Assembly: GCF_000024185.1 (NCBI RefSeq)
Contig: NC_013790.1
Location: 124,001 to 188,000, forward strand
From: Methanobrevibacter ruminantium M1
GTDB lineage: Archaea > Methanobacteriota > Methanobacteria > Methanobacteriales > Methanobacteriaceae
Reading direction: 5' to 3'
Length of the DNA: 64,000 bases
In this document: positions 12,501 to 54,334 of the stretch, one piece after another
Numbering within the stretch: the stretch's first letter is position 1
How the letters are laid out: each line of letters begins with the position of its first letter
The notes under the pieces: model-generated
Databases searched by the model: none
What the model was told of the DNA's origin: nothing
What the model saw: only the letters and a program-made list of their open reading frames with translations
Program-made: the position numbers and the translations under genes

Positions 12501-15500
12501 TGTATTTGGGGAGCCTATATATCCAAATGCTACAATTAGATTAGAATTTGTTGACGGTGAGGTTATTGTAACTCTAACTGATGGCGATGGTGCACCTCTG
12601 GCTAATAAAGGTCTTGGTCTAGCTATCGATGGTATCGTAGTTATTGGCCCTAGCACTGATGATTATGGTATTTATAGAATGGGTATAGAAGGCAATGCAA
12701 CTGTTGAAATTAGCTATCAAGATGAAAATGGAATTGTTGTTTCAAGTTCCATTACTATAGTCAATAATACTGAGACTGAAACTGTTTATGTTGGCCCTAA
12801 TGCCACAATCCGTCTTGAAATTGTTGATGATAATGTTATTGCAAGCCTTAGTGATGGAGATGGCGCCCCTATAGCTAATGAGTTTATTGATGTCTCTGTT
12901 AATGGAGTTCCTGTTAATGGTGCAATGACCAATGCCAGCGGTCTTTATTCCATCTCTGTAGAGGGCAATGCAACTGTTGAGGTCAGCTATACTGATGATA
13001 ATGGAATTACAGTTTCAAGCTCAATTAGGATAATCAACAATATTGAGACTGTTCCTGAGCCTGTTAATGTTCTTCCTAATGCTACTATCGGTCTTTCAAA
13101 AGATGGTGATAGTGTTGTTATTAGTTTGAAAGATGGTTCTGGTGCTGCTATTGCTGGTGCTAGTGTGAATGTTTCTGTTAATGGTGGAGATGTCACTTTA
13201 GTTGGTCCTACTGATGCTGATGGTAAGGCTAGTGTTGAAATCAGTGGTAATGCTACTGTTGTGGCCAGTTATGTTGATAATAATGGTATAACTGTTTCCA
13301 GTTCTATTGTGATTAATTCTGAGACTGTTCCTGAGCCTGTTAATGTTCTTCCTAATGCTACTATCAGTCTTTCAAAAGAGGGTAATAGTGTTGTTATTAG
13401 TTTAAAGGATGGTTCTGGTGCTGCTATTGTTGGTGCTAGTGTGAATGTTTCTCTTAATGGTGGAGATGTCACTTTAGTTGGTCCTACTGATGCTGATGGT
13501 AAGACTAGTGTTGAAATCAGTGGTAATGCTACTGTAGTGGCCAGTTATGTTGATAATAATGGCATAACTGTTTCCAGTTCTATTATAATCACCAATAATA
13601 CAGAAATTGTGGTAATTGAAAAGTCTCATACTGCTGATGCTCTTTTCAATGTAATTATTCAAGAGGATAAACTTGGAGTATGGCTATACAATAACAATGA
13701 GGAAGAGCTTGCAAATAAAAACATTACAGTTGTATTTGATGATGATGAAGAAGGACAAAACTACCTTACTGATGGACAAGGATATACATCTATTCCTATC
13801 GGCGATCATTCTATTATAAAACTTTCATACACTGATGAAGATGGCGCTAGCGTTTTCTACACAGTTCATCTTTTTGAAACCGGCGAGGTAGTCGATGCTG
13901 ATTATGTAGTCATATACATAACCCCTCTTGACGATAGCTCACTTGAAGTAAGTGTCTCTGTCAATGGTGAAGACCTTGAGGAAGGTGAAATTACATATTA
14001 TCTTGGTGAAGATGCCGAAGGAATAACCGTTGACCTAGAGGATGGTGTATATGTCATTAATTATGACAACACTGTAAATCAGACAATTGCTGTTGAATAC
14101 ATTGATGACGATGATGTAAGTTGGTATGCCTACTATGAAGTGGTCGTATACAACAATACTGTCACTGAAACAGTTTACCTAAGCCCTAATGCTACTATCA
14201 GCTTATCTAAATCTGGTAATGATGTTCTTGTTAGCTTAACTGATAATGATGGTAAAGCTATTGCTAATGCTGACTTGGATGTATTAGTAAATGGTGCCAA
14301 ATCCACTGCTAAGACCAATGCAAAAGGTGAGGCTACCATTGCTATTAATGGAAATGCTACTGTTGTTGTAAGCTATAAGGACGCTAATAATATCACTGTT
14401 ACAAGTTCTATCACTGTAGTGAATGAGACTGAAACAGTTGTGATTGAGAAGAACAATACCATAATTGAGTATGTAAATCAAACAGTTCCTCCTAATGCTA
14501 CCGTTTCCCTATCCCTTGTTGATGGAAAGGTTGTTGCTGAAGTAACTGATGGCGATGGTGTTCCTTTAGCTAATAAGCTTCTTGCTGTAACTGTTAACGG
14601 CGCTCCTAAACTTGGTGCTGAGACCGATGCAAATGGTATCTATTCCATTCCTGTGGAAGGCAATGCAACTGTTGTTGTATCATGCACTGACAATAATGGG
14701 GTAACTGTCTCAAGCTCAATCACTGTCCTTAACAATAGCGAGACTGTTGTAGTTGAAAAGAACAATACAATAGTTGAATATGTAAATCAAACCGTATATG
14801 TTCCTGTTGTTTCAAACTCAAGCTTTGATATAGTTGGAGATGAAAATGGAATAAGCGCAATCCTGCTTGATGAAGATGGCAAGCCTATTAGCGGTGCTGT
14901 TGTTGAACTTGATGTAAATGGAGCAAAATCCAATATAACTAGTGATAAGAATGGTGAAATTGTGATTCCAACAGATAAGAATGGAACCATAACCATGACC
15001 TATACTGATGAGAACGGCGCTAAGCTTATCTACACAACCAAGGTGATTACTCAAACAGAGATAATCTATCAAAACCAAACCATAGAGGTCCCTGTTTATA
15101 TCAATGTAACTCCTAATAGAGCTTCAACAAAGGTCATTTACAACAATATGTCTACAACTTCAGTCAATTCCAATGTTGATGGAAGAATTGGAGAATACTT
15201 TAAAGTTCAATTGGTTGACTCCAATGGAAAGGCATTGGCTAATAAGACTGTATACATTGGATTCAATGGAAGAGTTTATGTGCGTCAGACAAATGAGACC
15301 GGCGGAGCACAGCTACAAATCAACCTCGGTTATCAAGGAGATTACACATTTGCTATAGCATTCCTTGGAGACGATGATTATAATGGATCCTTTGAAGTTG
15401 CTATAATTAAGGTAAGCAAGCAAAGCGCTAAGCTTACAACTGCTGCTAAAACATATAAGACAAGCGCTAAGACCAAAGCATTAAGCTCTACATTCAAATC

Positions 15501-15702
15501 TGCTAAAGGTAATGCAATAAGCGGAAAGAAAATAAGTTTCACAGTAAATGGAAAAACCTATACTGGAACCACCGACTCAAAAGGTGTTGCTACAGTCAAG
15601 GTATCTTTATCCAAGAAAGGAACTTATAGTTTCACTGCAAAATTCGCAGGAGATGGAATGTATAAGGAAACTAGTGTTAGCTCTAAGCTCACTTTAAAAT
15701 AA
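6550..15702 (+). CDS. Adhesin-like protein, acidic beta-sandwich repeats
   Basis: The ATG at 6550 is preferred over the in-frame ATG at 6541 because GGTGAT (6543-6548) precedes it and the product then starts MNNKKLFIVSLIIL..., a typical Sec signal peptide ending near AVSA (residue about 24). The protein has 3050 residues. After an Asp-rich segment (about 85-115) come some 1900 residues of beta-sandwich repeats without a beta-helix. They include a superunit of about 400 residues repeated twice (about 9781-12240) and four YCPxGSEG-like motifs. Then follow about nine 'PNATI'-type Ig repeats (12525-15110), with VNQTV/NNTI spacers near the end, and the shared C-terminal module (15112-15702). The predicted product is strongly acidic except for the Lys-rich last domain. 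Likely a cell-surface adhesin; substrate unknown. Confidence 0.9.
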   Translation: MNNKKLFIVSLIILTILTIGAVSAADDGLATSDEITVDDSSVAVSTASAESDIYETNGDIVADYQSDSISNVTVDDDNTKDEIIRSSPAKDNLLLDDDDDPGAVNDDDEGDDDEDYLDDISVSITNEYDVTDQDAVIVSIFVPDVEEGEDGIEGYFVVCLDDDDEIFLGPFNHTITPDDYGTDVTFTASDLEITEAANYWVRVFYVSDLAEPLIDNDEEDGYNMIFDGDCIARDYTQFYVIVPPDGRISIFDTSAIYTVYCPPGSEGTVTLTLRDEEDVETSFTQEIEDADDENQLYWDLDYMGLNTIDAAGNYEVTITLENGTLICEDDIRIMDPIEIPEVSYINSTDYDHATLVALIKIPSELDDDLEELIDGTVIIQIDDETVFEKTLSEFVEGESPDDPFWVYPKIHWSDELDTSVKLYYVLNNQLDIDLEPGTYDVTVKLDLDGWDEVSSTEEVRLVESNVVIDEDIGASIEIFDQEDILNDNEVRIIAITVTGDKSGRVNLAVEGCPEWECPLDELENEGDIYYINSGFDIESGEHEVVVSYVLNDDRSVSNSAILNFIVYPRIFICGNGGEDIVNYFADEDSAIHIYPKGDDVSTIRIVVTIGDEVVLDSTIDDLGLSPKINDWGETYYTVGPANFNKKLEFGHYEPVVAYYYSDAYELSTEDGELSFIDIIGMVHVADIEDDETPVLAVCSDRDGQIGVYIRQYTEDGDQELEPKYFEVEKHGFIMPTIDQLGLDEGQYHIDVAYADDEWIFGNDLIVVNSSEYFVLYGCDWLYTEESVVYVWCPDDAEGIISLTNNDGTINVDHEITDEDKGKYVEFTLEELGISGPGWYEISVRVNGNEIDHIGFDVPSPIYMPNYNVYLPEEGYEPDYSMIIAKLELNSELEGNITINLDGTIVFNKDIEDMEAIKDGSKWIYTIYTSDLDEAEEGMHDVTVTFNDLNEERSIEFLNRTTESDGNLSIIMLGGTYCINWNDVIAEVIAPTNYNGRLVLRLQGEIMQSWDELHWVNWDNYNDTHNIYYIYVDNLDKMCIENPGEYTVSLEYYSDREDENPSLQNSEEYRFVRDEEPSGDFEWEVYHWADYEDENSLLVTVRYNDNIVDGRIEINIEDPNGITLTDSRDVGEGYEDTWLVSDLGIQEYGVYTISAKHILGDDEEIIFENEPVYVTKIQIRGEEEVYVDDPLFVLAIYHAGDRTTVYLNGAGIEGRRLPNGGPLVWYLSDLYINEPGEYDCTIQLFDEDDNLFAQTEYYLNVIEGDDGYRLIKNLDWDYFTSSTPVAALYCPEGSVGDISIDIYAPDDNDDDYRSRDIVNTILDSIGSEDVGGFKIWTLGDLGINEGGWNYGFVLNDADGDTITDENGENCEFGFGAVLYHGIGIAIWDQNPVALDNEWLVDIYSPLDNDGDVILMIGDEVYFSDTLQNLAMYQYDEDIEQGCAHFHFGANSFNRTIETGHYEEVIVYYDGFDGYSTDSTAFDCPTVLDFGKPMNFDWSVKGAYYEYYDNNVINVWYNEEINGGQIKIIARAENGTEYESVKDYNDNRNNEWTITDFGISEIGKYNLTLIYINEGDEEIVRDDKVLQVLTFDPRFANWVTVDHPYDVLAIYQATEEIRVYVNGEGPYEGIKMPNDGPLSWDLEALGISAAGEYEILVESYDGEGNLLSSFEDVLYVSDEMNPNEYRVEYANDWDFYSLDSPVFGLYCPEGSEGPITIEVYGPDDNDALLNTINDNIESGDIGTIKSWTVGELITNLNGWDYRFVISDANGIIKNGNDEDIGEFNRGINFHDSIDYISINEWSYLDDEWFIDIFAYTGNDGDVAVEFDGATVYNGRLSDLLFFQSDEDMQRGIAHYHIPVSYLSNEGNPIEAGLYLNIIVKYYGDDGYNTTGYTLQSYIDENGFDWANVRLSVGDDPNTIILTLTNSHWEPLADKEVYISVNGGERQWGLTDEYGIAIFTIDGGNCTVRGEYENAENQWSAYEMTLCVFGEPIYPNATIRLEFVDGEVIVTLTDGDGAPLANKGLGLAIDGIVVIGPSTDDYGIYRMGIEGNATVEISYQDENGIVVSSSITIVNNTETETVYVGPNATIRLEIVDDNVIASLSDGDGAPIANEFIDVSVNGVPVNGAMTNASGLYSISVEGNATVEVSYTDDNGITVSSSIRIINNIETVPEPVNVLPNATIGLSKDGDSVVISLKDGSGAAIAGASVNVSVNGGDVTLVGPTDADGKASVEISGNATVVASYVDNNGITVSSSIVINSETVPEPVNVLPNATISLSKEGNSVVISLKDGSGAAIVGASVNVSLNGGDVTLVGPTDADGKTSVEISGNATVVASYVDNNGITVSSSIIITNNTEIVVIEKSHTADALFNVIIQEDKLGVWLYNNNEEELANKNITVVFDDDEEGQNYLTDGQGYTSIPIGDHSIIKLSYTDEDGASVFYTVHLFETGEVVDADYVVIYITPLDDSSLEVSVSVNGEDLEEGEITYYLGEDAEGITVDLEDGVYVINYDNTVNQTIAVEYIDDDDVSWYAYYEVVVYNNTVTETVYLSPNATISLSKSGNDVLVSLTDNDGKAIANADLDVLVNGAKSTAKTNAKGEATIAINGNATVVVSYKDANNITVTSSITVVNETETVVIEKNNTIIEYVNQTVPPNATVSLSLVDGKVVAEVTDGDGVPLANKLLAVTVNGAPKLGAETDANGIYSIPVEGNATVVVSCTDNNGVTVSSSITVLNNSETVVVEKNNTIVEYVNQTVYVPVVSNSSFDIVGDENGISAILLDEDGKPISGAVVELDVNGAKSNITSDKNGEIVIPTDKNGTITMTYTDENGAKLIYTTKVITQTEIIYQNQTIEVPVYINVTPNRASTKVIYNNMSTTSVNSNVDGRIGEYFKVQLVDSNGKALANKTVYIGFNGRVYVRQTNETGGAQLQINLGYQGDYTFAIAFLGDDDYNGSFEVAIIKVSKQSAKLTTAAKTYKTSAKTKALSSTFKSAKGNAISGKKISFTVNGKTYTGTTDSKGVATVKVSLSKKGTYSFTAKFAGDGMYKETSVSSKLTLK
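9781..12240 (+). repeat. About 400-residue superunit, two divergent copies
   Basis: Copies at about 9781-11030 and 11040-12240 run in the same order: a WYN/RYN strand region, a 'VLAIY...VYVNG.G' domain, a 'DWD(Y/F)...LYCPEGS' domain and a 'GDV...VYxxxL' domain. Similarity is clear in protein but not in DNA, so this is an older duplication than the 276-bp one further on. Confidence 0.65.
13045..13596 (+). repeat. 276-bp near-identical tandem repeat (92 codons)
   Basis: The segment starting GAGACTGTTCCTGAGCC at 13045 recurs at 13321 with few differences to about 13590. Each copy encodes one 'LPNATI' Ig repeat. It is the counterpart of the 279-bp duplication in the first gene. Confidence 0.85.
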
Positions 15703-16557: not shown

Positions 16558-17559
16558 ATGTCTAATTTAGAAGTAGTGAAATCATTATTTTATCCTTCAG
16601 ATGATGGAGAAGAAACAGTAGAAGTAATCATTCACTGAGAAACACTTTGGGCTACACAGAAGTCTATTTCAGAGTTATTTGGAGTAGATAGATCCGTAAT
16701 TTCTAAGCACTTGAGGAACATTTTCAATGAGGGTGAATTGGATAAGGATTCAGTATGTGCAAAAATTGCACATACTGCCAGTGATGGTAAAATCTATAAA
16801 ACCAATTTTTACAATCTCGACGCCATGATTTCTGTAGGATATCGTGTAAATAGCATTAAGGCAACAAGGTTTAGGCAATGGTCCACATCTGTTTTAAAGG
16901 AATATATGGTTAAAGGATATGTCTTGGATGATGTTTTATTGAAAAATGGCACTCGCTTTGGCAAGGACTATTTTGATGAGCTCTTGGAAAAGATTCGTGA
17001 AATAAGGGCCAGCGAAAGAAGGGCATATCAAAAGGTGACTGACATATTCTCCCAGTGCAGCTATGATTACAATCCCAAATCCGAAGTTGCAAGAGAATTT
17101 TATGCTAAGATTCAAAACAAGCTTAATTTTGCAATCACCGGACATACTGCAGCAGAAATCATTAGTGAGCGAGCAGATAGTGAAAAAGAGCATATGGGTC
17201 TAAAGACATGGAAAAACTCTCCTGATGGAAAGATTCTTAAGTCTGATATATCAATTGCCAAGAATTATTTAAGCGAAGATGAGATAAAAAGCTTAAACAG
17301 ATTGGTCAATATGTATTTGGACTATGCTGAAAACCAGGCTTATATGCATAAGCTAATGGGGATGGATGACTGGGCTTTAAAGCTTGATAGCTTTTTGGAG
17401 TTTAATGATTTTGAAGTTTTGGATAATAAGGGCCATATTAGCATGAATGAGGCTCAAAAGATTGCAGATGCTGAATTTGATAAGTTTAGAGTAAAACAGG
17501 ATAAGTTCTATCAGTCTGACTTTGACAAATTATTGGAAGATGTTAAAAGATTAAAATAA
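16558..17559 (+). pseudogene. RhuM-family protein gene, interrupted by in-frame TGA
   Basis: ATG at 16558 with GTGAT 3 nt upstream. Codon 27 is TGA (16636-16638); the same frame then continues to 17559. The conceptual product (about 333 residues) has the RhuM order: a short N-terminus, ETLWATQ...ISELFGVDRS (helix-turn-helix-like), HLRNIF.EGELD, VCAKIAHTASDGK, YNLDAMISVGYRVNS and FRQWSTSVLKEYMVKGY, then a helical C-terminal part. The family is known from Salmonella RhuM and is common near mobile and defence genes; its biochemistry is poorly known. The break falls just before the conserved ETLW block. An internal ATG at 16711 gives a 282-residue remnant that lacks this block. One substitution would restore the gene, so recent inactivation or a base-call error are both possible. 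Confidence 0.75.
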
Positions 17560-21000: not shown

Positions 21001-21613
21001 CACAGTTGTAATCAACAATACAGTTAAGAGAAATGCAACTAAGATCATTTACAATAATATGTCTACTGTCTCTGTCAATTCTGAGGTTGATGGAAGAATA
21101 GGAGAATACTTTAATGTGACTTTAGTTGACTCCGATGGAAATGCATTGGCAAATAAGACTGTATACATTGGATTCAATGGAAGAGTCTATGTCCGTCAGA
21201 CAAATGAGACAGGCGGAGCACAGCTACAAATCAACCTCGGTTATCAAGGAGATTACACATTTGCTATAGCCTTCTTAGGTGATGATGACTACAACGGATC
21301 ATTTGAAGTTGCTATCATTAAGGTAAGCAAGCAAAGCGGTAAGCTTACAAGCTCTCCAAAAACCTATAAGGCTAAAGCTAAGACTAAAACAGTTTCAGCT
21401 ACATTCACTTCCTCTTATGGAAATCCTATCCCGGGCAAGAAGATAAGTTTCATAGTCAATGGAAAAACCTACTCAGCTAACACCAATGATAAGGGAGTTG
21501 CTACAGTCAAGGTTTCCCTATCCAAGAAAGGAACTTATACCTGCAATATCAAATTTGCAGGAAATGGAATGTACACTGAATCCATTGCAAAATCTAAGAT
21601 AACTATTAAATAG
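18053..21613 (+). CDS. Adhesin-like protein with Ig-like repeats
   Basis: The ATG at 18053 has GAGTGATT just upstream. The 1186-residue product starts with a signal peptide (MKFNKNRG..., hydrophobic core to about residue 27, ending SMASA). A Ser/Asp-rich leader (about 28-95) is followed by about seven Ig-like domains of roughly 100 residues (to about 800). Then come two 'ANIDLAIDG' Ig repeats related to the PNATI type (about 803-985) and the shared C-terminal module (about 990-1186). The module is almost identical in protein and DNA to that of the 6550-15702 gene. No beta-helix and no C-terminal membrane segment. Likely a surface adhesin; ligand unknown. Confidence 0.9.
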   Translation: MKFNKNRGISAISIILILFLSISMASAIEISADDADMDSGDLSVCEVSTSDCYGETLISADASGADSSDEIIINETIADEKTDYRSSILADGEKKNLHVEVSNDVFTPDNDYEFMLYDEDFNQIGGYLDIYLNDELTYSDFTVDSSESSSISLSGLECGLNKITFIYDEDDVYNRLNQTKEFYIYGENPEFVMIPHYDTITLNGNYSSRVYLKEYDEWGYYDEDNEGDIEPIDDKFNVYIYKENPGDEYELVWEDEFEANGTINFDDAIKTTGNYLIRYVFNGSSDYSYAPYNSSNIIRCVNVITDFIINDTYFIPDKGFGFSVYLVDNATGDIIDKEFKLMVYYILDTSNPVRIVEEEMVKGNKTYTFDCSEIPENITYLFIGCIFDGDRDEYSSADKEYALELTDSRIETSINANIGDSVIGNSSSFRVYVQDEENWGQIDATLDIYLNEEYSQTVTAYAYLENEVLIENLKKGENTLRIVYNGTDIYQNSEKSYNFTVSDKRANIEVDVSNIIVGDVTKITVNLTDEDGNILNKEFNVSIYKGGSYYDEDSELIYSQVYTGSANISLPDLEIDDYYVRAEFVDESFVYSQAEDSEYFNVYSKGSYIDLGKTYWPDNDDVVLNISLRNYIEENINGEVLFQFNGTDYPLTCTEDGAILNLGKLPVGKYQIFAKFDGDGEYEASNLTDQLRIVKATIINVEACDVLKGQSETVNITFTDGDGNPLDVKMLDINIWDTDGNWLDYGQLRNSIEIKNIQTDYIIRAMLSDSYGEIGYSDYYPSSAYGFIRVLNGTDPTVITVTNTANIDLAIDGPKVIITLTDEDGKAISGAKLNAAVGNMESILTTDSKGQAVLAIGANDTAKVTYTDENGAGVSASIVNNVINTTVTEIVEKNITVPVTANATIDLAIDGSDVVVSLNDLDGNAIASASLDATVGTTNSTLTTDDKGQAKVAIGVNETAKVTYTDENGASVSASIVNNVINSTVVINNTVKRNATKIIYNNMSTVSVNSEVDGRIGEYFNVTLVDSDGNALANKTVYIGFNGRVYVRQTNETGGAQLQINLGYQGDYTFAIAFLGDDDYNGSFEVAIIKVSKQSGKLTSSPKTYKAKAKTKTVSATFTSSYGNPIPGKKISFIVNGKTYSANTNDKGVATVKVSLSKKGTYTCNIKFAGNGMYTESIAKSKITIK

Positions 21614-22170: not shown

Positions 22171-22190
22171 TTTGAATGGAGTATAAAAAG

Positions 22191-25675: not shown

Positions 25676-28262
25676 ATGAAATTAAACATAAAAAAGAAGC
25701 ATTCTTCTATTGTCCATACTTTCTGTTCTATTTTTAAGCATGGCAATGGTATCTGCTTCTGATATTAGTGCAGATGATTCTGTATCTTTAGATGCAGCAG
25801 ATTCAGACATCGTAAGCACTGATTCTATAAGTGTTGACTCTGTAAACACATATTCTGCAGATTCAGCTATATCTTCTAATGAAGATAAAGACAATTATCA
25901 CCCTTCCAATCTAAAGGATGATGATAATAAGATTTCAAAAATCAATTATGAACTTAATGACACCGTCTTTTATGGAGATGATGTCATAATAAACGCAAAT
26001 CTTACAGATATGGACGGAAACATAATCGATGAGTTTTTCCAAGTTACAGTTTATGATGAAGGCAATCCATTGCAGTCAAACAGCTTGAAAGGCAAGGGGA
26101 CCATGATTGTTCCTACAGTCTCATTGACCGAGAGCAGTTATTATGATGTTGCCCTAAGTTTTGCAGGCAATGAGGAATATGCTTCCTGCAATGAATTTAC
26201 AAGCTTTAACGTGACTTTTAAGGAAAATTCATATCTTGCCATTTCTAATTATGATTCATATTCTAAAATAAATTCAACTAAAATAAACTTCATCATATAT
26301 GATGTGGATGACGAATATATCAACGACACAGCTGACATTTACCTTAATGGAGAATATTATACAAGCGTCCTTACAAATGGAAATGAGAATGAAGTGACCA
26401 TTGAAAACCTCCAAGTGGGAGAGAATACTGTTTTAGTTAAATATAACGGCTCTAATATATATAAGGGCTCAGAAGACTCTGCTACCATAATGGGATATGA
26501 AAAGGATACCTCCATTGGAATCGATGCTCCAGATGTCCTTATTGGAAACGATGCACGGATAAAGATTAATCTAACTGATGAGGACGGCAATATTGTAAAT
26601 GGCAGAGTGGATGTGGAAATTTACGAATACTATACTGGTGACGACGAATCTTATGTTCCATTTAAAGACGATTATGTCGTGAATGGAGAGGCAATAATTG
26701 TTATTTATCAATCCAAATTGCGTGCAGGCGTTACATATTTCATAAGGGCTGATTATGAAGGAAATTTAACTTATTTCAGATCAGTTGGCTCTGACTACTT
26801 TGATTGTTTTAACAGAAGCACTGAAATAGTAATCGATGGAAGAATCGCATCTGATGATAAGGATATCACTCTTGAGATTGGTCTTTTTGACCAAAGACAA
26901 GTGATGATTGCAGGGCTTGTCAATCTAACAGTTTTCGACAATGAATCCAATGTGGTCATTGACACAATTTCTGTTGAAACAAGCGCTGATGATTATGTCA
27001 ATGTGACAATCGGCAAATTGCCTTATGGCCATTATATGATCAATGCAAGCTTTGAAGGTAATGAAGAGTATGAAGGATGCGAATTGGAAGCTAATTTGCA
27101 TGTCTTTAAGGCAACCAACCTAACCATTGAAGTTCGTGACCAAATCAAAGGAGAATCCCAAATAGTCAACTTCTCTTTAGTCTCATCTGATGGCGGATTA
27201 AATGAAAGCGCAAGTCTTATCATAAGAAATATGGAAAATGACTTGATTTATGATGGTATAATCAACTTTACAGATGGTAAGGCTTCCTATAACTTAGACA
27301 ACCTTGAAGAAGGTCTTATTATCTTAGCAGATTATAACAATGGAATGGACTTAGTAGGACCATTTGAAACAGTCTATGATTCAGCTTCCAAATTTGCAAC
27401 TGTAAGGATTATAAAACAGCTCAATGGAACCATTGAGTTTGAGCCTGTCAATGATTCCATCATTGTAAACTTAAAGGACATTGATGGAAATCCAATTGCA
27501 GAGGCTCCTCTTAGTGTGGATGTCAACGGACAAGTATTTGAATTAATTACCGATGATAACGGTCAGGCAATGCTTGACAACATTCCAAACAATGTCACAA
27601 TCGAGGTTAAATACACAGATAACCAAGGTCTTGTAGCAAGCAATAAGATTGTTGTCCTTGTTAAGGAACAAATCAAGCAAAGGGCTGCAAGCAAGATTGT
27701 CTGCAAGAACATGAGCACTGTAGCTGTAGCTACACCTGACGGCAGAGTCGGTGAGTATTTCAATGTCACCTTAACCGATGCAGATGGAAATCCTTTAGTC
27801 AATAAGACAGTTATGATTGGATTCAATGGAAGGGTATATACCCGTACAACCAATGAGACTGGAGAGGTTAACTTACAGATCAACCTTGGTTATAAGGGAT
27901 CCTATACCTTTGCTATGTGTTTCTTAGGTGATGAGGATTATAATGCATCCTATGAGGTATGTGTGATTAAGGTTTCATCTCACCAGCCTAAATTGACCGG
28001 AAGCGCTAAGACCTATAAGGTATCTGCAAAGACTAAAGCGATATCTGCAACATTCAAGACATCTAATGGAAATGTAATAAGCGGCAAGTCTTTAGTTTTC
28101 ATTATAGACGGCAAGCTTTATAATGCTAAGACCAATTCCAAAGGAGTTGCTACTGTAAATGTTTCCATCTCTAAAAAAGGAACTTATTCCTGTACCGTAA
28201 GGTCCAGTGATGATGGAATGTATGCAGCTACCAGCACTAAGTTTAATGTAAAGATAGTTTAG
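25676..28262 (+). CDS. Adhesin-like protein with frameshift in signal peptide
   Basis: GAGGTG plus 5 nt leads to ATG 25676, but that frame (MKLNIKKKHSS...) stops soon after. The long frame carries KRSILLLSILSVLFLSMAM directly before VSASDI, a signal-peptide core. It joins the ATG frame if one A is removed from the A6 tract at 25690-25695, giving MKLNIKRSILLL..., close to the MKFEIKRSLIF start of the gene at 29048. The long frame itself has no ATG before the core; the nearest start is TTG 25710, which would lose the positive n-region. With the correction: 861 residues, about six Ig-like domains, one PNATI-like repeat, then the shared C-terminal module (27673-28262). No beta-helix. A surface adhesin that is either switched off, phase variable or miscalled at one base. 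Confidence 0.85.
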
Positions 28263-28598: not shown

Positions 28599-29047
28599 TA
28601 ATGGAAGATAATTTAGTTTATCATTATACGAACTTTTTTTAAAGAATTAAATTTTAATTGCTATTTTTTCAAAATAACCATCATATACTTCTTATTTGTA
28701 CTATTAAATAATTTTTAATCTTAAAATAACAAATAAGTTATTATAATCAATATTTGATTTTTTCATCTTCAAGTAAAAATTGATTTAAGAATGTTAAATT
28801 GTTCTAATATTAAATCAATATTGTTCCACCTTAATTAAATTTGTCTTATTTGAAATCAATTTTGGCTTTAAAAATTTTACAAATTACTTTTACAAAGGCT
28901 AATAAGAGGCCATTTTGACTATTGCAAATCAATTACAACTCTTTTTTTATTAACCAATTTAAGATATTTTTTCAAGAAAAAAAATATTAAAATATAAATA
29001 TCATATTGGAATTAAATATATAATAATAATTAAAAAAGGTGTTTATT

Positions 29048-29878
29048 TTGAAATTTGAAATTAAAAGAAGTTTAATATTCATTTCAATATTAGCAATATT
29101 GATCTTATCTATTGGAATGGCATCTGCTTCTGAAGAAATTTCTGATTCTGTTTCAACTGATATAGCATCTGAAGATGTTACAAGCGAAATTCAAACAGAT
29201 AATGTAGAAATTACTAATCTAGATGAAGACTCTTCTTTAGATGATGCTGATTTAGAAAAGGATACAGGCGATAAAGTCAAAAAGGCAAAGAAAAGAATTA
29301 ATACTAAAATCATCTACCAAAATATGAGTACCACCGCTGTAGTTAATGAATATGATGGCAGAACTGGGGAATACTTTAATGTAACTTTAGTGGATGAAGA
29401 CGACAAGCCTGTAGTTGGCGAATTGATTCAAATTGGATTCAACGGTAGAATTTATAATCGTACCACTGATTCAAACGGTGGAGCCCAACTTCAAATCAAC
29501 CTTGCTTATTCAGGTCCTTATACCTTTGCTATCTGCTATTTAGGTGAAGATACCTATGAATCTTCCTTTGAAGTTGCAGTAATTAATGTTGCTGCTAAAA
29601 AGATGACTTTAACTGTTCCTTCCAAAAGCTATAAGGCATCTGCTAAAACCAAAACATTAACTGCTACCTTAAAGGATAATAAGGGCAATTTAATTAAAAG
29701 CAAACAGATCAGCTTCACTGTAAACGGTAAGACATACAGTGCAAAGACCGATTCCAAAGGTGTAGCTACTGTTAAAGTAAGCCTTTCCACTAAAAAGACT
29801 TACAGCTTCACAGCAAAATTTGCTGGAGACAAGTCATTTGGTGCGGTTACTAAGACTGGTAAGGTTACTATTAAATAA
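29048..29878 (+). CDS. Mini adhesin-like protein: signal peptide plus C-terminal module
   Basis: The start is placed at TTG 29048, 6 nt after GGTG (29038-29041); the GTG at 29039 overlaps that site and would add MFI before the natural signal peptide MKFEIKRSLIFISILAI.... The 276-residue product has a signal peptide to about residue 27 (ASA|SEE). A short acidic Ser/Asp linker (about 28-80) comes next. The remainder is only the two-domain module that closes all larger ALPs here: DGRTGEYF, IGFNGRIY, LQINLAY, then the Lys-rich KSYKASAKTK... domain. It lacks any exposed binding part. It may be a wall component, competitor or scaffold, or a remnant after loss of the variable region. Confidence 0.88.
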   Translation: MKFEIKRSLIFISILAILILSIGMASASEEISDSVSTDIASEDVTSEIQTDNVEITNLDEDSSLDDADLEKDTGDKVKKAKKRINTKIIYQNMSTTAVVNEYDGRTGEYFNVTLVDEDDKPVVGELIQIGFNGRIYNRTTDSNGGAQLQINLAYSGPYTFAICYLGEDTYESSFEVAVINVAAKKMTLTVPSKSYKASAKTKTLTATLKDNKGNLIKSKQISFTVNGKTYSAKTDSKGVATVKVSLSTKKTYSFTAKFAGDKSFGAVTKTGKVTIK

Positions 29879-29914
29879 TCAAGCTTTTTTTGGCCGAAGG
29901 CCAAAAAACCTTGA
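29879..29914 (+). terminator. Strong GC-core terminator after mini-ALP
   Basis: The hairpin starts right after the stop codon: TCAAG/CTTGA outer pairs, then TTTTTTGGCC (29886-29895) with GGCCAAAAAA (29899-29908) and a GAA loop. A T8 run follows. It is unrelated to the GAATAGTT family. Confidence 0.8.
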
Positions 29915-43500: not shown

Positions 43501-45945
43501 ATTGGCGATACTATTGTTAGATATTACATTGGAAGCACTGATGGAGCTCTCCTTCCTATTGATGCAAACGGTAAAGGATCATTTGACATTGACAATACAG
43601 TCAATCAAACCATTAAGGTCAGCTACACTAAGGAAGGCACTGAATGGTCTTCATATTATGACTTTATTGTAAACAATGAAGTAACTCCTGTTCCTGTTGC
43701 CAATAACGCTAAATTCGATGTAATTGTTCGTGAAGATAGCATTGATGTATTCTTATACAACGATAACTTAGACGATTTCGAAGGCGCTAAGATTATGGTT
43801 ACTATCGGTGAAGAAGATCCAGTTGAATATATTGCTGGAGAGAACGGAAATATAACCATCCCTATCAATGGCGATACCACTGTAGAGCTTTCATACACTG
43901 ATGAAAACGGAGCTACTGTCTACCACACTGTTAAAGTTTCCACTAGTGGTGTGGATCCTTCTGCTGAAATTGAAATTATCGTCGAATCTCATAACGACAC
44001 TTCTATTGAAGTAAGCGTAACTGTTGATGGTGATGATGTCAGTGATGGTGAAATTACCTATTACATTGGTGATGATGACGATGGAACAGTTGTTCCTATT
44101 GAAGATGGAATTGCTATCATACCATTCGACAATACTGTAAATCAAACCATCGAAATCACATACTCAGATGGTGACGCTACAGAGTCAGTATACTACACTA
44201 TAGTTGCATTCACTCACGAAGTTCCTGTTGAGCCTCCTGTAGCTAATGGCAGCTTTGATGTTGAAACAACTGATGATGCTATTGTTGCTACTTTAGTTGA
44301 CTCTGATGGTAAACCTATTGCTGATGCAACTGTTTCTGCTATAGTCAATGGCGAAGAGCAAAACTTCACAACTGATGCGGATGGTAAGCTAAGCGTTCCT
44401 ATTGATGGCAATGCAACTGTTGAGCTTAGCTACACAGATCCTGAAAACGGTGCTGTCTTAAAATATGTAACTGATGTGGTAACTAAAGAAGTTCCTATTG
44501 AAGTTCCTGTTGTTGCTAACGGCACTATGAGTGTAGAAACAACTGATGATGCTGTTGAAGCTACCTTAGTTGACAGTGACGGAAACCCTATTGAAAATGC
44601 TACTGTCACTGCTGTAATCGATGGTGAGGAACAAAACTTCACAACTGATGCAGATGGTAAGGTAAGCATTCCTGTAGGTGAAAACGCTACTGTAGAGCTT
44701 TCATACACTGACCCTGAAAACGGTGCAGTTGTTAAATACAGCACTAAAGTCGTAACTAAAGAAGTGGAAGTTCCTGTTGACGTTCCTGTTGTTGCTAACG
44801 GAACATTAACTGTTGAAACAACTGACGATGCTATTGTCGCTACATTAGTTGACAGCGACGGCAAACCAATTGCTAACGCTACTATCATTGCAGTTGTAGA
44901 TGGCGAGGAAATGGAAATACCTACCGACGAAGATGGTAAATGCAGCGTTCTTATCACAGGAAACAACACTGTAGAGTTCAGCTACACAGATCCTGCAAAC
45001 AACGCTACAGTTTCATACTCCACTAAAGTGGTCACTGAAGTCGAAGAAGTAATCGTTCCTGTTCCAGTAGTTGCTAACGCTACAATCTCCTTAAGCACTG
45101 AAGACGGCAGCTCAATCGTTGCAACCCTAAAGGACCTTGACGGCAACGCAATAGCAAACGCTACACTTGATGCTAATGTCAATGGCGAAGAAACTAAGTT
45201 AACTACAGATGCAAACGGAATAGCAACTATTCCTGTATCTGCAAACACAACAGCAGTAGTCTCCTACACAGATTCTAACAAAGCTACTGTAACAAGCTCA
45301 ATGAGCCTAACAGTAATCGAAACCATCGTAGAAATCAACAAGACAATTGAAGTTCCTCCAGTAAGAAACGCATCTCAAATCGTTTGTGAAGACATGAACA
45401 CAATTGCAGTTGCAAAAGATGATGGAAGAATCGGAGAATACTTCTACGTAAAACTAGTTGACGCAAACGGCAATGCATTAGTCAACAAGTCCGTACAAAT
45501 CGGATTCAACGGCAGAGTATACAACCGTACAACTAATGAAACAGGTGATGTAAAACTACAAATCAACCTCGCATACAAAGGAACCTACACATTCGCTATC
45601 GCATACCTAGGCGATGACAACTACAACGGTTCATTTGTCGTTTCAAAGATTACAGTAAAACAACAAAGTCCTAAGATTACTACAACTTCCAAGACTTATA
45701 AGGCTAGCGCAAAAACAAAAGCATTGACCGCTACCTTTAAGACAGCAAATGGAAACCTAATAGCTGATAAGACTATTAAGTTTACTGTAAACGGTAAGAC
45801 ATACTCTGGCAAGACCAATGCAAAAGGTGTAGCAACTGTAAAAGTAAGCCTTAACACTAAAGGAACTTACAGCTTTACAGCAAAATACGCAGGAGACGAC
45901 ACCTTTAAGGCAACTAGTGCAAGCGGTAAATTAACTATTAAATAA
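31519..45945 (+). CDS. Giant adhesin-like protein with nine beta-helix units
   Basis: ATG 31519 (GTGA 5 nt upstream) gives MKKSDFKRIFICLVLLTCL..., a signal peptide to about residue 25; an in-frame ATG 17 codons earlier would bury it. The product has 4808 residues. Nine parallel beta-helix units follow, opened by DUF1565-like IYVxxxGxDxNxG or WFIEGGxGY motifs. They contain Pmp-style GGAIY and FxxN repeats. Seven close in N-[WYF]-[WF]-[GA]-[TSA]-N (at about 32780, 35046, 37164, 38515, 40003, 41404 and 42783), with Ig-like domains between the units. From about 43150 come some eight Ig repeats of PNATI/FDVxxxDD type, then the shared C-terminal module (45361-45945). It is one of the largest proteins expected in such a genome. 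Likely a long surface fibre; its architecture mirrors the gene at 54972. Confidence 0.92.
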   Translation: MKKSDFKRIFICLVLLTCLIGAVSAAEDVSVDDVSTDAVAVDTITEDASDPTDISTVSEPVSNDVQANTSQELNKEPATKSTNVLKDGTSTNIYVATTGSDENDGLTQSTAVASLAKAVEIVNATAGTDFTINVANGDYNISKIESPAAKNVNLIGESKEGAILHASDTYGINVYEDNIAWTIENLTICDFNSTTSTSAAVRCFAIDSVFNINNCIFKNIGSKNGAIYITSTGTRTISNVLIEDCFGTYSSSSSIIHLYGEGPVTLDNIEIRGSYMDPSVGTATYLRSVIYADQAQTNVTLKNSRIVDNIGAMGSLIEAKGAFKVINTTFEGNYLNTSSNGVNGGTFMFYSGTSSNSASNIDISQSVIKDNVLAGGSIGLFNCVYGTHNIDHNVIMNNKYANGNDVPLGSFSGAAISTDDNYWGTNERPNTKTTEWVILTVDTPEMAFVGVSEAIPVNLNTYKTTNNETGAVEGMPDVDFGVTYALNQANPSTVTVANGQGTINYLATVDGNETLTFSTGDAFSFDVKADIASLIYVDGLNGNATGPGDSEHPYKTIAQAINVAADGKIIVIKSGTYTENSLIIANNITLKADKNAEVIIDANNEGRIFTVQKDAIIRDLTLINGKSTGNGGAISLDSGLLTLNNVKIYNSTAQSGGAIVSLSGSQLSVSNSEFIDNNASNGGAIYVAGVADITNNKFISNDPEDGGAIYVAGVADIESNEFTSNHATNGGAIYIDSENNQTIKDNTFTSNTADKGEAIYIKNANVSLSGNTMGENDSIYLDGASLKTTLTFLGGKTIAAEFGQTLNLTATLTDEDGNNIRGGIVTFTANGETIATIDLSTDAQLKTQYTVPNDAAGDITISGSYSLDNGGAVISGKIHPAVPHWFIEGGSGYETLADAIDGASAGDIIYYDLPEDYTEVISSKTINKALTIKNNGTGVVTLDGNLDRILSISSASVNLENLIFINGATATNGGLIYLSGSASNDLNISGCTFKDSKFTTTSTYTYAVAIYANGGNINIKDSEFRNLTAPKTGMIYQSSSSGAITIENSLFDNITGAYDGGLINSNGDVSLVKTNVTNIFGSTSTSDYGLIYIRSYGGFLFISECQFINISNAGAHPVYYRGSGGYNITQSLFMNINSNKIIDASAKGYVNYNIFANNSNNYVLYGSSSSKISADYNFFGSNSKPTSYVSNVNYTYWTIVELSSASDTAYVGNPTDIAIQFVGTDGSENLTLEGIMPEYTFTLNVTNGTIVPNTVTLEDNEANAEFTPTSVGKVNITATPGPAQLTLNVIDPSILLVVSTDGSDTNPGTLNSPYKTIAHALTQANATRNVIYLLSSDDAYAEHGLTVSDNITIRAEDNTVTIDGGQEGPIFTVTGTLSIEDIILSNAKVDEDNGIGGAIYLNGGNLTVNGVVFSDCIAAYGGAIATTAGSNLTVINSVFSDNKAKYGGAIYVAGEANISNSEFSDNNNEITYGGAIYVNGTGPVVISANEFDNNKANKGEAIYIENGAVNVSENTIPANETIYLAGGSINSVLIFLANGTISAEFEEEVNLTATLTDDQGNAIKGGIVTFTANGETIATVDLSTDAQLETQYTVPNDATGDILISGSYSLDNGGVVATGIVHPAVPHWFIEGGSGYETLAEAVDAASAGDVIYGDAGTYDVSDLIINKAVTIKANESGSIVLNGNGNQIFNTRANVILDNLTFINGSASSNGGFIYVYSDSLVINNSVFKDLKATGGLGSAIYVATGSSNITIENSAFDNIKAATGLINCRSKTTTFTLVKTNFTNIDVSTNGLFYLYEGGLRAYESQFINVSGGDGAVVYFYGQSDNIVTKCLFDNVTTTKTTGIIYSNSKSANITYNAFLNVNYGVYSSSSYGEVITADYNYWGSNDKPGTSLVNSNSKLNNWVVMTVSPDTLDSLDSGATQAFTVDFTHYTDGTANYTMADTIPELTVSASAVKGSLDQSEVETQNNVATFTYTGSQNGEETVTFTNANLSIPVKFVVGEGYFGIVYVAKNGSDENKGSEDAPVATIARAVEIAQRGSGQIIITEGVYNENNITINSEIPISIKGQGDVVIDGEGLSSLSIFTIKSGEVSIEKISFRNNKAKFGAGVNVQGTSGSSLLDANVLINECNFDNLSSDASGSQGGAIYAKYLKGNLVINNSNFTNSIVKSGGGALTVAYCAYEDALDLVISNCNFENNTANNGGAAYLMANTINIVNTSFINNNATYSPGALELYNCTGTMDNCSFINNSAKNTAAAFKLEFVKDQPITSLIVTNSIFKDNVGRDEVAPAIFVDRASLNISNSILLNPLNINTSTVTGYGAVPGQGVTVANSNWWGTNENPSNLTAGSGDNVNTTIDNWVIMNVSPTEAIGYTGEALEITVDFKYTMSADGTIETLAGTLPEEFTVNANAANGTLDKTTADTSNLQAKFAFTPEFAGENIVNIYTTESNTVPVTIMVTEKYAGPIYVTKDGDDENEGSENLPVATIAKAIELAQGKSGLIFIGEGTYVESNLTISKDLNITALGEVIWDANGQRAFSMSTGSVSISNITFINGNYTRNGHLIYCAGDSLKFDECKFLSNGGNVTGTNGVIYVELASANFNNCYFENNTAGTGTSYGLISAKDSVIIVDGCTFVNNFNKNGCIYVSGSNIGSMAVINNTKFIGNNATSASGGSGGAIYASGSMAYQYSNGTVRPGAQSAVYVIDCDFINNTAFGGKYYNAEGGAIFVNANATLYASNSRFIDNTALDYEETNKSGRGGAIAATTGNVQISNCIFQGNTANNGSVIAMKFANKDLTTVNVLSISNSVIMGPGEKLIVSDFTNGSLVANNNWWAANENPSDRVSEGITVDSWVILTADPSEITGTLDEIIPIVANFRHTNSTDGTIGDLEGEFPELEVFGMTLDEGEITESNLTVDNVATLYYTPEETGETTVYAISGNAMVPIKVTITDTPQPVADVIYVSPSGADTNAGTYEAPVATIAHAVELAGAEGASGLVVIEEGIYNENGIVINSAIPITITGNGTVIIRGNNHVVNGNGAGRFGDVSESTSIIIVNTTEAVVIANIAFEDNIAANGGAILIAGTSSSNLFDADVLVENCSFNNLQGRNGGAIYAYYAIGNLTVANCEFTNINATWAALCAYQAAYGEGLTVEIKDSSFTNNSANNAPALYLQATNVVIKDSNFTDNNATYHPGAIYLQNTTATIDNCIVANNSAKYDKAAIAIHGGNIQYNPVIVKPSEVTITNSIIENNIGRDKAAPAIYLENSILNMSYSSVVNEININNTVTATYGDEKPGLVLINNNWWGTNDPSTTIFGTNITMDNWVIMNVEANATEILAGEEVKLTVDFNHVNTTAGEIEELTGGVIPRESYSVALSVDNGTVAPETLTIANGATGEAIFTAANANALITVTSENAVETILINVGEQPVPFTGVVYVSKDGDDANEGSEDEPVASLARAIEIATAEEGSGQIIIKEGTYIVDGYNITKDLTITGEGDVILDAQNQGNRLFNMAYGTTVSNFELHNLVLANVTAMYGAVVYSYAANAVLDNITVAGINHEMARLISNYGNLTIKDSVFANNTVSGIITHSGNNNLNIVNTIFEGNNVTYDSSIMGVVYVSSGRGNITIEDSKFYDNLVRQSTVRGYTDTNITVKGTEFINNTADNSPYYCSGGAIFAQANLDVTESIFINNNARREGGAIYIGINGVANITKSEFINNTIYDNEYYGDAIYTKGTTAINYCIFLTNGTRYAVYNGGSKEVNAQYNWWGTNDDPQGFAYSADASNWIIMTVTAPSTQDIQAGDEYELTVDFNHYTDGSDILELPDSLAQELTVEFTSTTGTFDNPVVTTENQVATAKYTVVAGENSITVKSTDAVWNTSFTAGEKAKAKMNVSMENNTIIVTLTDEEGAPIAGKTISVLINEDTLSNETNSSGIAAISLGTLDAGTYPATISLADSEYQAPELTVFVLVEETLVDNPIGAVIELALAENGTSIEVTLKDINGQPIGDTIVRYYIGSTDGALLPIDANGKGSFDIDNTVNQTIKVSYTKEGTEWSSYYDFIVNNEVTPVPVANNAKFDVIVREDSIDVFLYNDNLDDFEGAKIMVTIGEEDPVEYIAGENGNITIPINGDTTVELSYTDENGATVYHTVKVSTSGVDPSAEIEIIVESHNDTSIEVSVTVDGDDVSDGEITYYIGDDDDGTVVPIEDGIAIIPFDNTVNQTIEITYSDGDATESVYYTIVAFTHEVPVEPPVANGSFDVETTDDAIVATLVDSDGKPIADATVSAIVNGEEQNFTTDADGKLSVPIDGNATVELSYTDPENGAVLKYVTDVVTKEVPIEVPVVANGTMSVETTDDAVEATLVDSDGNPIENATVTAVIDGEEQNFTTDADGKVSIPVGENATVELSYTDPENGAVVKYSTKVVTKEVEVPVDVPVVANGTLTVETTDDAIVATLVDSDGKPIANATIIAVVDGEEMEIPTDEDGKCSVLITGNNTVEFSYTDPANNATVSYSTKVVTEVEEVIVPVPVVANATISLSTEDGSSIVATLKDLDGNAIANATLDANVNGEETKLTTDANGIATIPVSANTTAVVSYTDSNKATVTSSMSLTVIETIVEINKTIEVPPVRNASQIVCEDMNTIAVAKDDGRIGEYFYVKLVDANGNALVNKSVQIGFNGRVYNRTTNETGDVKLQINLAYKGTYTFAIAYLGDDNYNGSFVVSKITVKQQSPKITTTSKTYKASAKTKALTATFKTANGNLIADKTIKFTVNGKTYSGKTNAKGVATVKVSLNTKGTYSFTAKYAGDDTFKATSASGKLTIK

Positions 45946-52300: not shown

Positions 52301-54334
52301 GATATTGGTGATTTGGTTCCTGGATATTATGATTGCTTGTTTGTCTTTGCTGGTGATGACTATTATGATTCTTCAAGTGATTCTTTGAATTTCACCATTG
52401 ACAAGTATTCAAGTGATTTAACTGCTCTAATTAGTGAAGATTCTATCCTTATTAGTTTGTCTAGTAATAATCTAGGTCTTGATAATAAAACTATAAGTGT
52501 TACTATGGGAATTGAGTCTTTTGATGTAATAACTAATAGTTCTGGTTTCTATAGTCTTGATATTAGTGGATTGGGTCCTGGAGATTATATTGATTGTCTG
52601 TTTGTCTTTGCTGGTGATGATTATTATGATTCTTCAAGTGATTCTTTGAATTTCACAATTGACAAATACGACACTAAATTGGATGCTAAAAATACCATTG
52701 GCAGTTTTGCTTTAGTAAATCTCGATGCTAAATTGACAAGTGGTGAAAATGCTCTTAAAGACAAATCCATTAGTCTTCATATTGCAAATAAGACCTTCAC
52801 TAAAAAGACTGATGATCAAGGTAAAGTTGTATTTGACTTATCTTCATTTGATCCAGGTAATTATATTGCTCTATTGAGCTTTGCTGGTGATGAATATTAC
52901 AAAAATTCAACTGTTTCTGTTGAAGTCATTATAAACAAGTTGAATGCTGATTTAAGCAGTGAATTTAAGGATAAAAAATTATATATTTCTTTAAGTCATA
53001 AAGGCGCTCCTGTTAAATATATGAATCTTGCTATAGAGATAATCGATTCATCAAATAAGAGTACAGTATCAAATGCACTAACAGATAATGAAGGTCATTT
53101 CATTATGGATTTAAGCGATTTAAGTCCTGATAGTTATGTTTCTATCATAAGGGCAATTGGAGATAAGATTTATAATCCTGCAAGTGATGAAATAGAATTT
53201 GTCATTGGGGGAGATACTCCATCTAAATCCACTAGAACTGCTGCAGACTTACAAAAACTTATAGATGATGCAAGTAGTGGAGATATTATAGATTTAGGTG
53301 AATATGACTATCTTAATGTTTCTAATATTAATATTACAAAGGATATTGTTCTTATTGGAAACAATACAAGCATTTCAAGTTCAGGAGATGGAAATCCAAT
53401 ATTCAATATTGCTACAGGGTTAAGTAGTGTTAAAATCAGTGGAATTGACTTTAATGCATCAAATGGGGATGTGATTGTTAAGGCAATTGCTCAAAACGGA
53501 ACTGATTCATTGTCAATCATTGTTCCAGCTATTGAAATCACCAATAACACAGTGATGGGAGACAATATAGTTCCAGAATCCATCACTATATTAGAATTGG
53601 ATTCAGATAGGGGAGTTCTTGCTCCGAATAATGAGATTTATATTGCCAATAACACTTTGGAAATCGGAATGAAACCGTTTGAATTTAAGGTCAAGAGCTT
53701 TGAAAATGATTCAAGTGCTAATGTGCCTATCGGCGGTGGGTTGAATGGCAAAAAGACTTCCATCATCCATTATGAGAATATGGACACTGTAGCAGTCAAT
53801 ATGGATATTGAAGGAAGAGTTGGAAAGTACTTTGAAGTCAATCTAACCGATTCAGATGGCAATCCTTTGGCAGATAAGAAGGTTCAAATAGGATTCAATG
53901 GTGTAGTATACAATAGAACTACAAACGCCACAGGCGGGGTAAAACTGCAGATAAACCTTGGATATAAGGGAACTTACACATTTGCCATCTCATATCTTGG
54001 GGATGATGAATACAATGGAAGCTTTGTAGTTGCTAAGATAAAGGTTAGCACTCAAAAGACAAGTCTTACAAGCACATCAAAGACCTATAAGGCAAGTGCA
54101 AAGACAAAGACTCTCACTGCAACACTTAAAGACTCAAAAGGCAATTTAATAGCTGGAAAAACAGTTAAATTCACTTTAAATGGAAAAAGCTATTCAGCTA
54201 AGACAAATGCAAAGGGTCTTGCTAGCGTTAATGTAAGCATCTCAAGCAAGAAGACCTATAGCTTTACAGCCAAGTATGCAGGAGATGATATGTATGCATC
54301 TTCCAGTGCAAGTGCTAAGCTTGTAATTAAATAA
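46304..54334 (+). CDS. Adhesin-like protein, beta-helices then Ig repeats
   Basis: The 2676-residue product starts at ATG 46304 with a signal peptide (MNFKKLLMISLILLF..., cleavage near STASA). An Asn/Ser/Asp low-complexity segment of about 85 residues follows. Three beta-helix units then come, each opened by I[YF]VSxxGND and closed by NWWG (about 47590, 49085 and 50555). Next are Ig-like domains, including three similar repeats of about 85 residues (51890-52660, ...YDSSSDSLNFTI...), and a further short beta-helix-like stretch (about 53220-53690). The shared C-terminal module runs from 53752 to 54334. The unit order (helices first, Ig repeats second, module last) matches its neighbours. Predicted surface adhesin. 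Confidence 0.9.
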   Translation: MNFKKLLMISLILLFVLSVGFSTASAIDSDNLLDENNNINVNYIDSDNSDSILISDNSNDAKSNNLILNNSINKKELNDNSNSNSNLECDSSINENLDLENNYKINEKSAGLKDNTNTIYVSVDGNDENDGLTLETAVANISKAVSLAGEGYTIHISSGTYEQNKSTQLSHAFNFIGEDGTIIKRIGTANAFTYTSDTKKTISFKNIIFSSTTPNPSNPILSMAGGADLQIDNCTFTDAIAGRNGLIRYLGSSTGKITNTNFIGLTGSTSASSSYITALAQSKVKVENCTFANINEPGFLNSLVYVNNNETNLTLVNCVFNNITGNLNAVVNNRGYMQIKNCSFTDISLSGNSPRGIVWSSETISKNSITYINSSVFINNSVNTEVVVNSSVIQAKSPTIVEYSAFLDNDVVFIINNDNDTDVTANYNWWGTNEGPKNCSVNRESSASSNPSSSSEEKISLVSDGVTVDNWAIMTVDLETSGLIAGEDYPIIININKYMNERGEIDSSVEYGISGAEILLSSQIGTFNSDFIIYNEDNGNIIQNQAKVYTNNGAVTVFYKATEEGSDTLNISSGYEEIVYNLEFGQSIEYNDIYVSKDGNDNNDGLSNETSVLTIARALEIGENLNSNIRIHIGSGSYHESGFELNGTYTVQDGVLQVKRTTYSFIGYGNVVIDGDGQNKSLFTVRNNSVSYKNIRFTNVDGATYGGAINGDNLYRRTAYIDLTINNCTFDDLHVKSSGGAIYLNYVSGRISINNTKFYNLTTNSSWGGAISAEEAFDLARVKVTNSDFRDNYANNAPAMYLRVSNVTVLNSNFINNSAKYYPGAIHFYNASAIIENCVIANNSAKKDSAAIKISEGTNDVGNKIIIKSCIIENNSARDEISPAIYVEKGALDISYSSVVNDLSIATRTYYSNLYGLQQGVAIANNNWWGLSNPFGENEIGGNYSSLLGGVFNGSNITVDSWVILNAVLNDTGVLKVGNIVNISIDFNHVNTTRGEIELLSGGKIPKEYTLRLNATGGIVYPNYMKTVKGEANSKFTVRDLDNLGDDFASCGFDIISDNEITHIVFEINNYKGVIFVSMSGNDDCNGSMDAPVRTINKSIELALDEEFGSHEIFVLPGTYEAYGIELDSTYLSITGSGRDSTILDGVGYTGGIFNIFESELTVKNLTVINGVNTVSSGGAFTNMGNLTLEGVNVSNCQVRNANGAAIYSVGNLNLINSSFVKNTALSGNYANGGVIYADGYSTSLPYPPSLNITDCEFISNAAQGSTFGGGVIYAQYLDGYKSIKNSKFINNTAEFGGAIFLQDSEGDFIIDNTSFIGNKATGQAGSTNPYYGGGALNLIGRTDGREGNFIITNSLFINNSAKNSRGGGAILDRNVDLNITNSVFLNNTDTNKSVQVFKDTTVYFPSGGRISLEDNWWGANELSSLSTVAANVTINRWVVMNLSVELIDDLDSWGLNLGNSLDDGLNTDLGNTLTENNLNNYLVKVLLNEYNDGTLIDNPNYYPLLRLYTLESSDGEINPSFGILQNNCATALLSSSNRENVIRATIDGETLEFNTIDLYTKTVLDIEFDSPIKAGENLTVYLNLTDIDDNPINGTVILNISSDLYETVETVNVNEGKGFKEFSGLKVGVYTVLANYYGQSIYLDSNDSKVLEISPISSYLDLESKEISIFLGFGNLTGTLSDDNGPISNRNVSLIIDDDTILNGLTDESGQFLIDLSSLKVGNYSDLELVFEGDGDRLSSSDLVNITVKKIVLNLNLIVEDDSIVVNLSIDDSVLDYLGVDDSLDDISLEGLTVLAFINETDRVSDLINKSAITDDNGIATIDISDLNPGNFTALVSLKENDNFEIDSNKDINFSIDRYKTNLTAIIDENNSYILINLTSDIGLDSKTVSVTIGNESFDVITNSSGLYGLDISDLAPGYYDCLFVFDGDDYYDSSSDSLNFTIENRMSELTAIIDDNYESILISLTCDGIGLAGKTISVTIGNESFELITNDSGLYSLDIGDLVPGYYDCLFVFAGDDYYDSSSDSLNFTIDKYSSDLTALISEDSILISLSSNNLGLDNKTISVTMGIESFDVITNSSGFYSLDISGLGPGDYIDCLFVFAGDDYYDSSSDSLNFTIDKYDTKLDAKNTIGSFALVNLDAKLTSGENALKDKSISLHIANKTFTKKTDDQGKVVFDLSSFDPGNYIALLSFAGDEYYKNSTVSVEVIINKLNADLSSEFKDKKLYISLSHKGAPVKYMNLAIEIIDSSNKSTVSNALTDNEGHFIMDLSDLSPDSYVSIIRAIGDKIYNPASDEIEFVIGGDTPSKSTRTAADLQKLIDDASSGDIIDLGEYDYLNVSNINITKDIVLIGNNTSISSSGDGNPIFNIATGLSSVKISGIDFNASNGDVIVKAIAQNGTDSLSIIVPAIEITNNTVMGDNIVPESITILELDSDRGVLAPNNEIYIANNTLEIGMKPFEFKVKSFENDSSANVPIGGGLNGKKTSIIHYENMDTVAVNMDIEGRVGKYFEVNLTDSDGNPLADKKVQIGFNGVVYNRTTNATGGVKLQINLGYKGTYTFAISYLGDDEYNGSFVVAKIKVSTQKTSLTSTSKTYKASAKTKTLTATLKDSKGNLIAGKTVKFTLNGKSYSAKTNAKGLASVNVSISSKKTYSFTAKYAGDDMYASSSASAKLVIK
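51890..52660 (+). repeat. Three tandem Ig repeats of about 260 bp
   Basis: Copies start near 51890, 52150 and 52415. DNA stretches such as AGTGTTACTATTGGTAATGA and GATGACTATTATGATTCTTC recur, showing fairly recent duplication. Codon choice is more AT-rich here than in the beta-helix part. Confidence 0.7.

Follow-up and report, generated by a model that had tools for sequence, protein, structure and literature searches.

A stand-alone gene for the M1-C module in Methanobrevibacter ruminantium M1: a mini-ALP that may be held in the cell wall

The closest described system is the M1-C region of Methanobrevibacter ruminantium M1. In the main text of Leahy et al. 2010 (PMC2812497), M1-C was described as a C-terminal region of 200 residues that is conserved among 44 ALPs and weakly similar to Big_1, and it was proposed that it possibly attaches to pseudomurein or to wall glycopolymers. 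The walls of M1 were reportedly phosphate-rich in the same source. A natural two-domain form of the proposed anchor is a handy test object for the way in which gut methanogens retain their dozens of giant adhesins in a wall of pseudomurein. Such a form is encoded in the window, by which we mean the whole stretch of 64,000 nucleotides analyzed here, positions 124001-188000 of the 2,937,203-base M1 genome. The gene and its parts, in window coordinates, were as follows:

29048..29878, + strand: stand-alone M1-C gene, TTG start, 276 codons and stop (ORF listing, genome-wide copy survey)
29038..29041, + strand: Shine-Dalgarno-like GGTG, 6 bases ahead of the TTG at 29048 (sequence)
29048..29128, + strand: signal peptide (MKFEIKRSLIFISILAILILSIGMASA), residues 1-27, with cleavage probably after ASA (sequence; AF2 helix 4-26)
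29129..29296, + strand: acidic disordered linker, residues 28-83, about 56 residues (charge count; pLDDT <50 for residues 20-76)
29297..29590, + strand: M1-C domain 1, Ig-like, residues 84-181, net charge -8 (charge count, AlphaFold2, conservation comparison)
29591..29875, + strand: M1-C domain 2, Ig-like, Big_1, residues 182-276, 21 Lys, 0 Arg, net charge +18 (Pfam, charge count, AlphaFold2)

The ORF, at 153048-153878 of the genome, was intact, with neither a stop nor a frameshift, and the start region and the signal peptide were intact as well. An alternative GTG at 29039, which sits inside the GGTG, opens the same frame in the ORF list. The linker was rich in Ser, Asp, and Glu and ended in KKAKKR, and its net charge was -11, or -16 without this basic motif. 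Domain 1 was the most acidic among the M1 copies. In the C-terminal part of about 193 residues, the Pfam scan gave matches to Big_1 (E=2e-14), Big_3_5, and MG4, and domain 2 exceeded the cut-offs of both Big_1 (PF02369) and Big_3_5 (PF16640). AlphaFold2, which was run on the window sequences and on L056, predicted two Ig-like beta-sandwich domains (pLDDT >90) behind the disordered linker. L056 is an M1-C protein gene on contig CAMOWA010000112.1, in a MAG labelled Bacillales; the contig is probably misbinned and from Methanobrevibacter. The original prediction, that the gene encodes only two Ig-like domains behind a signal peptide and a linker, was borne out by the intact ORF, Pfam, and AlphaFold2. 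M1-C takes up about 200 residues at the very C-terminal end of the protein, and its second half is Big_1-like. It possesses the signal peptide and the acidic N-terminal linker of an ALP, and the large repetitive adhesin body is absent; hence, it is a mini-ALP rather than a typical ALP. The reading that we prefer, with a probability of about 0.55, is that this mini-ALP is exported, is held in the wall through its lysine-rich domain, and arose from joined ALP ends without a body.

The M1-C modules of the other ALPs in the window were located by module alignment:

5284..5883, + strand: M1-C module at the end of an ALP
15100..15699, + strand: M1-C module at the end of an ALP
21011..21610, + strand: M1-C module at the end of an ALP
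27660..28259, + strand: M1-C module ending the ALP directly upstream of the stand-alone gene
45343..45942, + strand: M1-C module ending the 4825-residue ALP directly downstream of the stand-alone gene
53732..54331, + strand: M1-C module at the end of an ALP

These modules were 50-58% identical to that of the stand-alone gene, far above chance. It had been predicted that seven ALPs share the module; the shared C-terminal module was found, with six other ALPs in the window and the stand-alone gene itself as the seventh. A further ALP, the eighth, runs from 54972 past the edge of the window, and its terminal M1-C lies at genome 188578-189144. Between the ALP genes of the window, a RhuM-family gene and an AAA ATPase gene were observed at 16711-17559 and 22176-23636. 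The M1 genome contained 46 full-length M1-C copies (E <1e-48). Across the order, M1-C matches occurred in 58 of 151 genomes, all from the family of M1 and distributed over 4 of 19 genera (E 1e-25 or better). In the ALPs L128 (genome 2605121-2605429) and L127 (genome 1956663-1956959), the terminal module is directly preceded by an additional copy that resembles domain 1. Two short frames with a full-length M1-C were present in M1 (282 and 288 residues), all other frames having at least 562 residues, and the stand-alone gene was the sole one of the 46 copies that was both short and provided with a signal peptide. The second short copy, L007 (genome 2149277-2149855), was rejected as a stand-alone form and regarded as a truncated tail, since its 288-residue frame lacks a signal peptide and is preceded by stops. 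The L007 frame (genome 2149274-2150140, minus strand) comprises one Ig domain and M1-C with the repeated text QYNVLN*T / TAV*RTKLN upstream, and is probably a broken ALP.

Stand-alone forms composed of signal peptide, linker, and module were also found in relatives, in the genomes G004 (L047), G059 (L057), and G107 (L059), among the matches listed. Most short frames in G004, G005, G007, G012, G059, G080, and G092 were rejected as contig-edge fragments or signal-less tails. Among the matches listed, no orthologue of the M1 gene was found in 18 genomes of the same genus, most of them incomplete; the best matches there were modules of large ALPs, contig-edge pieces, or signal-less pieces. In a tree of 111 modules, the four stand-alone forms required three changes, and strongly supported branches forced at least two, so that stand-alone forms apparently arose three times. 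The module of the M1 gene grouped with other M1-C copies; its sister group (SH-aLRT 92) comprised the modules of the large ALPs L093 and L094 together with their relatives from G007 and G008, and its branch was longish (0.5, compared with a median of 0.21). The stand-alone form of G004, which belongs to the genus of M1, was nested among its own tandem neighbors (support 99; 84% identity), and the sequence ahead of its module resembled theirs, as would be expected of an internal deletion product.

The stand-alone forms of G059 and G107, two gut methanogens from another genus, formed one clade (support 98). They were 57% identical over the full length, signal peptide and linker included, and their locus was syntenic, with neighbors 64-96% identical. 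The dN and dS of the pair were 0.33 and 1.5 (Nei-Gojobori), giving a dN/dS of about 0.2, which is only rough because dS is near saturation. By these sequence comparisons, the gene is a syntenic orthologue retained under purifying selection. The evidence for such selection concerns this pair and not the M1 gene, since the latter had no orthologue in the same-genus genomes. In five other species of the G059/G107 genus (L162, L169, L174, L175, and L181), the flanking genes were about 300-800 bases apart, and where both flanks lay on one locus, as in these five, neither a stand-alone form nor an ALP was located between them. The small gene looks to have been gained and then kept rather than to be the residue of in-place decay; loss in those five species is a possible alternative. 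Conserved stand-alone copies, for which a profile search had been proposed, were found in one lineage (G059/G107), and none was orthologous to the M1 gene in its own genus. The opposite expectation, that stand-alone orthologues are lacking elsewhere, held in part for the M1 gene and was contradicted across species by G059/G107.

The origin of the M1 gene was examined from its two ends. Its 5' end was closest to the N-terminus of the ALP L096, with 40% identity over 71 residues (E=1e-13, uncorrected for composition) and 71% DNA identity over 91 bases, while its module was nearest to L093. The gene has the appearance of a fusion of two typical ALP ends, with the body missing. The following feature lies behind it:

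29886..29908, + strand: perfect inverted repeat TTTTTTGGCC-GAA-GGCCAAAAAA, just past the stop, terminator-like by appearance (flank comparison)

Matches to several ALP genes run on into the 3' flank, inverted repeat included, and therefore the module and the 3' flank seem to have been copied or exchanged together as a unit among ALP genes. About 50 bases of the flank resembled the flanks of L099, L103, L106, and L127, with 86-88% identity in L099 and L127. Duplication of the upstream neighbor ALP was rejected as the origin, the two modules being merely 50-52% identical and distant in the tree. A phage or plasmid origin was rejected as well, with no match to either and no real PHROG match. In G008, the orthologue of the neighbor gene was present and adjoined an ALP module at the contig end; the contigs of G007 and G008 with the neighboring ALP stop near the site of the M1 gene.

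The strongest competitor of the preferred reading is that the M1 gene is a recent deletion remnant, an ALP that lost its central region and left a translatable but functionless stub. Termini that resemble ALP termini with no middle between them, each nearest to a different ALP, would be expected of such a stub. The missing orthologue in the genus, the G004 form that keeps the pre-module text of its tandem neighbors, and the signal-less broken M1-C tails in M1 and its relatives point in the same direction. However, neither stops nor frameshifts marked the M1 gene as a deletion remnant or pseudogene, and nearly all of its conserved residues were in place. It retained 39 of the 40 columns conserved at 90% or more, a figure that spans the whole branch, including the time before a possible loss of the body, and it did so despite the long end branch. 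Its domain 2 was as conserved as that of the median M1 copy, and its domain 1 was among the six most divergent. Together with the intact start region and signal peptide and the stand-alone forms conserved in G059 and G107, this makes a remnant rather unlikely. A function of the M1 gene is likelier on this evidence, and the self-sufficiency of the stand-alone architecture is supported.

Domain 2 was strongly cationic and nearly free of Arg, whereas the ALP bodies were acidic. Its net charge was +12 to +24 (mean +15.9) in all 45 distinct M1 copies. By comparison, all 1390 windows of 92 residues taken from the ALP bodies stayed below +10, and the internal homologous Ig domains of the same proteins had a net charge of +4.9 at most. 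The composition of domain 2 was 18.9% Lys and 0.4% Arg. The pooled Lys:Arg ratio in domain 2 was 42.7 both in M1 and in other species; the ratio was 2.3 (M1) and 5.4 (other species) in domain 1, and 2.9 in the bodies. In the M1 copies, domain 1 had on average 3.3 N-glycosylation sequons and domain 2 had 0.7. A cationic tail at the very end of anionic proteins would suit anchoring in a polyanionic wall, and the lysine-rich domain 2 is in this respect consistent with wall binding. An anionic membrane lipid or a surface polysaccharide would also fit the net charge as a ligand.

With Lys favored over Arg, a chemical role of the amine is conceivable, for example in isopeptide bonds. Domain 2 might offer its lysines as acceptors for transglutaminase-type isopeptide bonds to pseudomurein peptides, and the short protein might cross-link or cap the wall. 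The Lys:Arg ratio of about 43:1 in M1 and other species speaks for this, as charge alone would permit Arg, and so do the seven transglutaminase-core matches in M1 and the Glu-Lys cross-links of pseudomurein, for which transglutaminases are probably responsible (PMC2812497). However, none of the seven genes was near the stand-alone gene, and Lys can be favored for other reasons in secreted proteins of AT-rich organisms; a covalent linker is improbable. That domain 2 is the lysine acceptor of a transglutaminase-type, sortase-free archaeal wall attachment, with the stand-alone protein as cross-linker or site-filler, is more improbable still. A non-wall target (partner cells, protozoa, membrane lipid, or other ALPs), with the short protein as secreted ligand or matrix component, is very unlikely. 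Mru_1499, another M. ruminantium ALP, reportedly needs a Big_1 domain to bind protozoa (described in PMC9213418), and vesicles of human-gut relatives are enriched in ALPs (PMC12134236), but M1-C ends bodies of widely differing length and opposite charge, as one would sooner expect of an anchor than of a ligand for one particular partner.

For the wall-held mini-ALP, the following mechanism is proposed. The protein would combine the standard export signal of an ALP with an acidic linker and the M1-C wall module, omitting the adhesin body, and would be exported by Sec. The lysines of domain 2 would contact a polyanionic wall polymer, such as pseudomurein, with its acidic sugar and glutamate, or a phosphate-rich teichoic-like polymer. 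The short acidic linker would face outward, and the protein would coat or fill wall-binding positions without reaching beyond the wall. Recombination or internal deletion may have fused an ALP 5' end to an ALP 3' end, the latter including the module and the inverted repeat. Such end-joining would recur in the ALP family, and its product would be viable, given a module able to fold and to anchor on its own. The self-sufficient task at the wall that had been predicted for the module was partly upheld: the threefold recurrence, the G059/G107 pair, and the lysine-rich domain agree with it, and the lone M1 gene with its ALP-like ends and the deletion-like G004 form weigh against it. The lysine-rich domain leads to a concrete hypothesis of lysine-mediated attachment, testable with one recombinant protein and isolated sacculi. 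In addition, surface proteins of rumen methanogens are candidates for vaccines intended to reduce methane, and a module common to 46 proteins is an obvious joint target.

Compared with solved structures, the stand-alone protein gave no real match in a sequence search, and Foldseek returned only generic tandem Ig folds, e.g., complement C3, intimin D00-D0, and an ice-binding adhesin. The pseudomurein-binding repeat (PF09373), which had no match in the Pfam scan, shares with M1-C the idea of a non-covalent wall anchor, maybe for many cargoes. The GW repeats of Gram-positive bacteria are charge-based, non-covalent wall modules that can be attached to many cargoes, and M1-C is related to them by working principle only. 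What sets domain 2 apart from Big_1 and Big_3_5 is its extreme Lys content and its placement at the C-terminus; Big-like domains further inside the same proteins are acidic to near neutral. The archaeal big domains (ABD) of Methanobrevibacter smithii and Methanosphaera ALPs (PMC11532034) are likewise Ig-like, and very short ALPs (156-203 residues) were noted there; in that study, however, the short ALPs were seen as possibly partial, and anchoring was ascribed to membrane helices and not to a C-terminal module. The M1-C of Leahy et al. 2010 agrees with the present module in C-terminal position, length of about 200 residues, Big_1 similarity, and proposed wall attachment. Their main text gives M1-C solely as the end of 44 ALPs, whereas 46 copies are reported here, one of them a whole protein with a signal peptide, and the lysine-rich domain 2 is highlighted. 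The M1-C module itself was known before; the recurrent stand-alone form, conserved at least once, is new.
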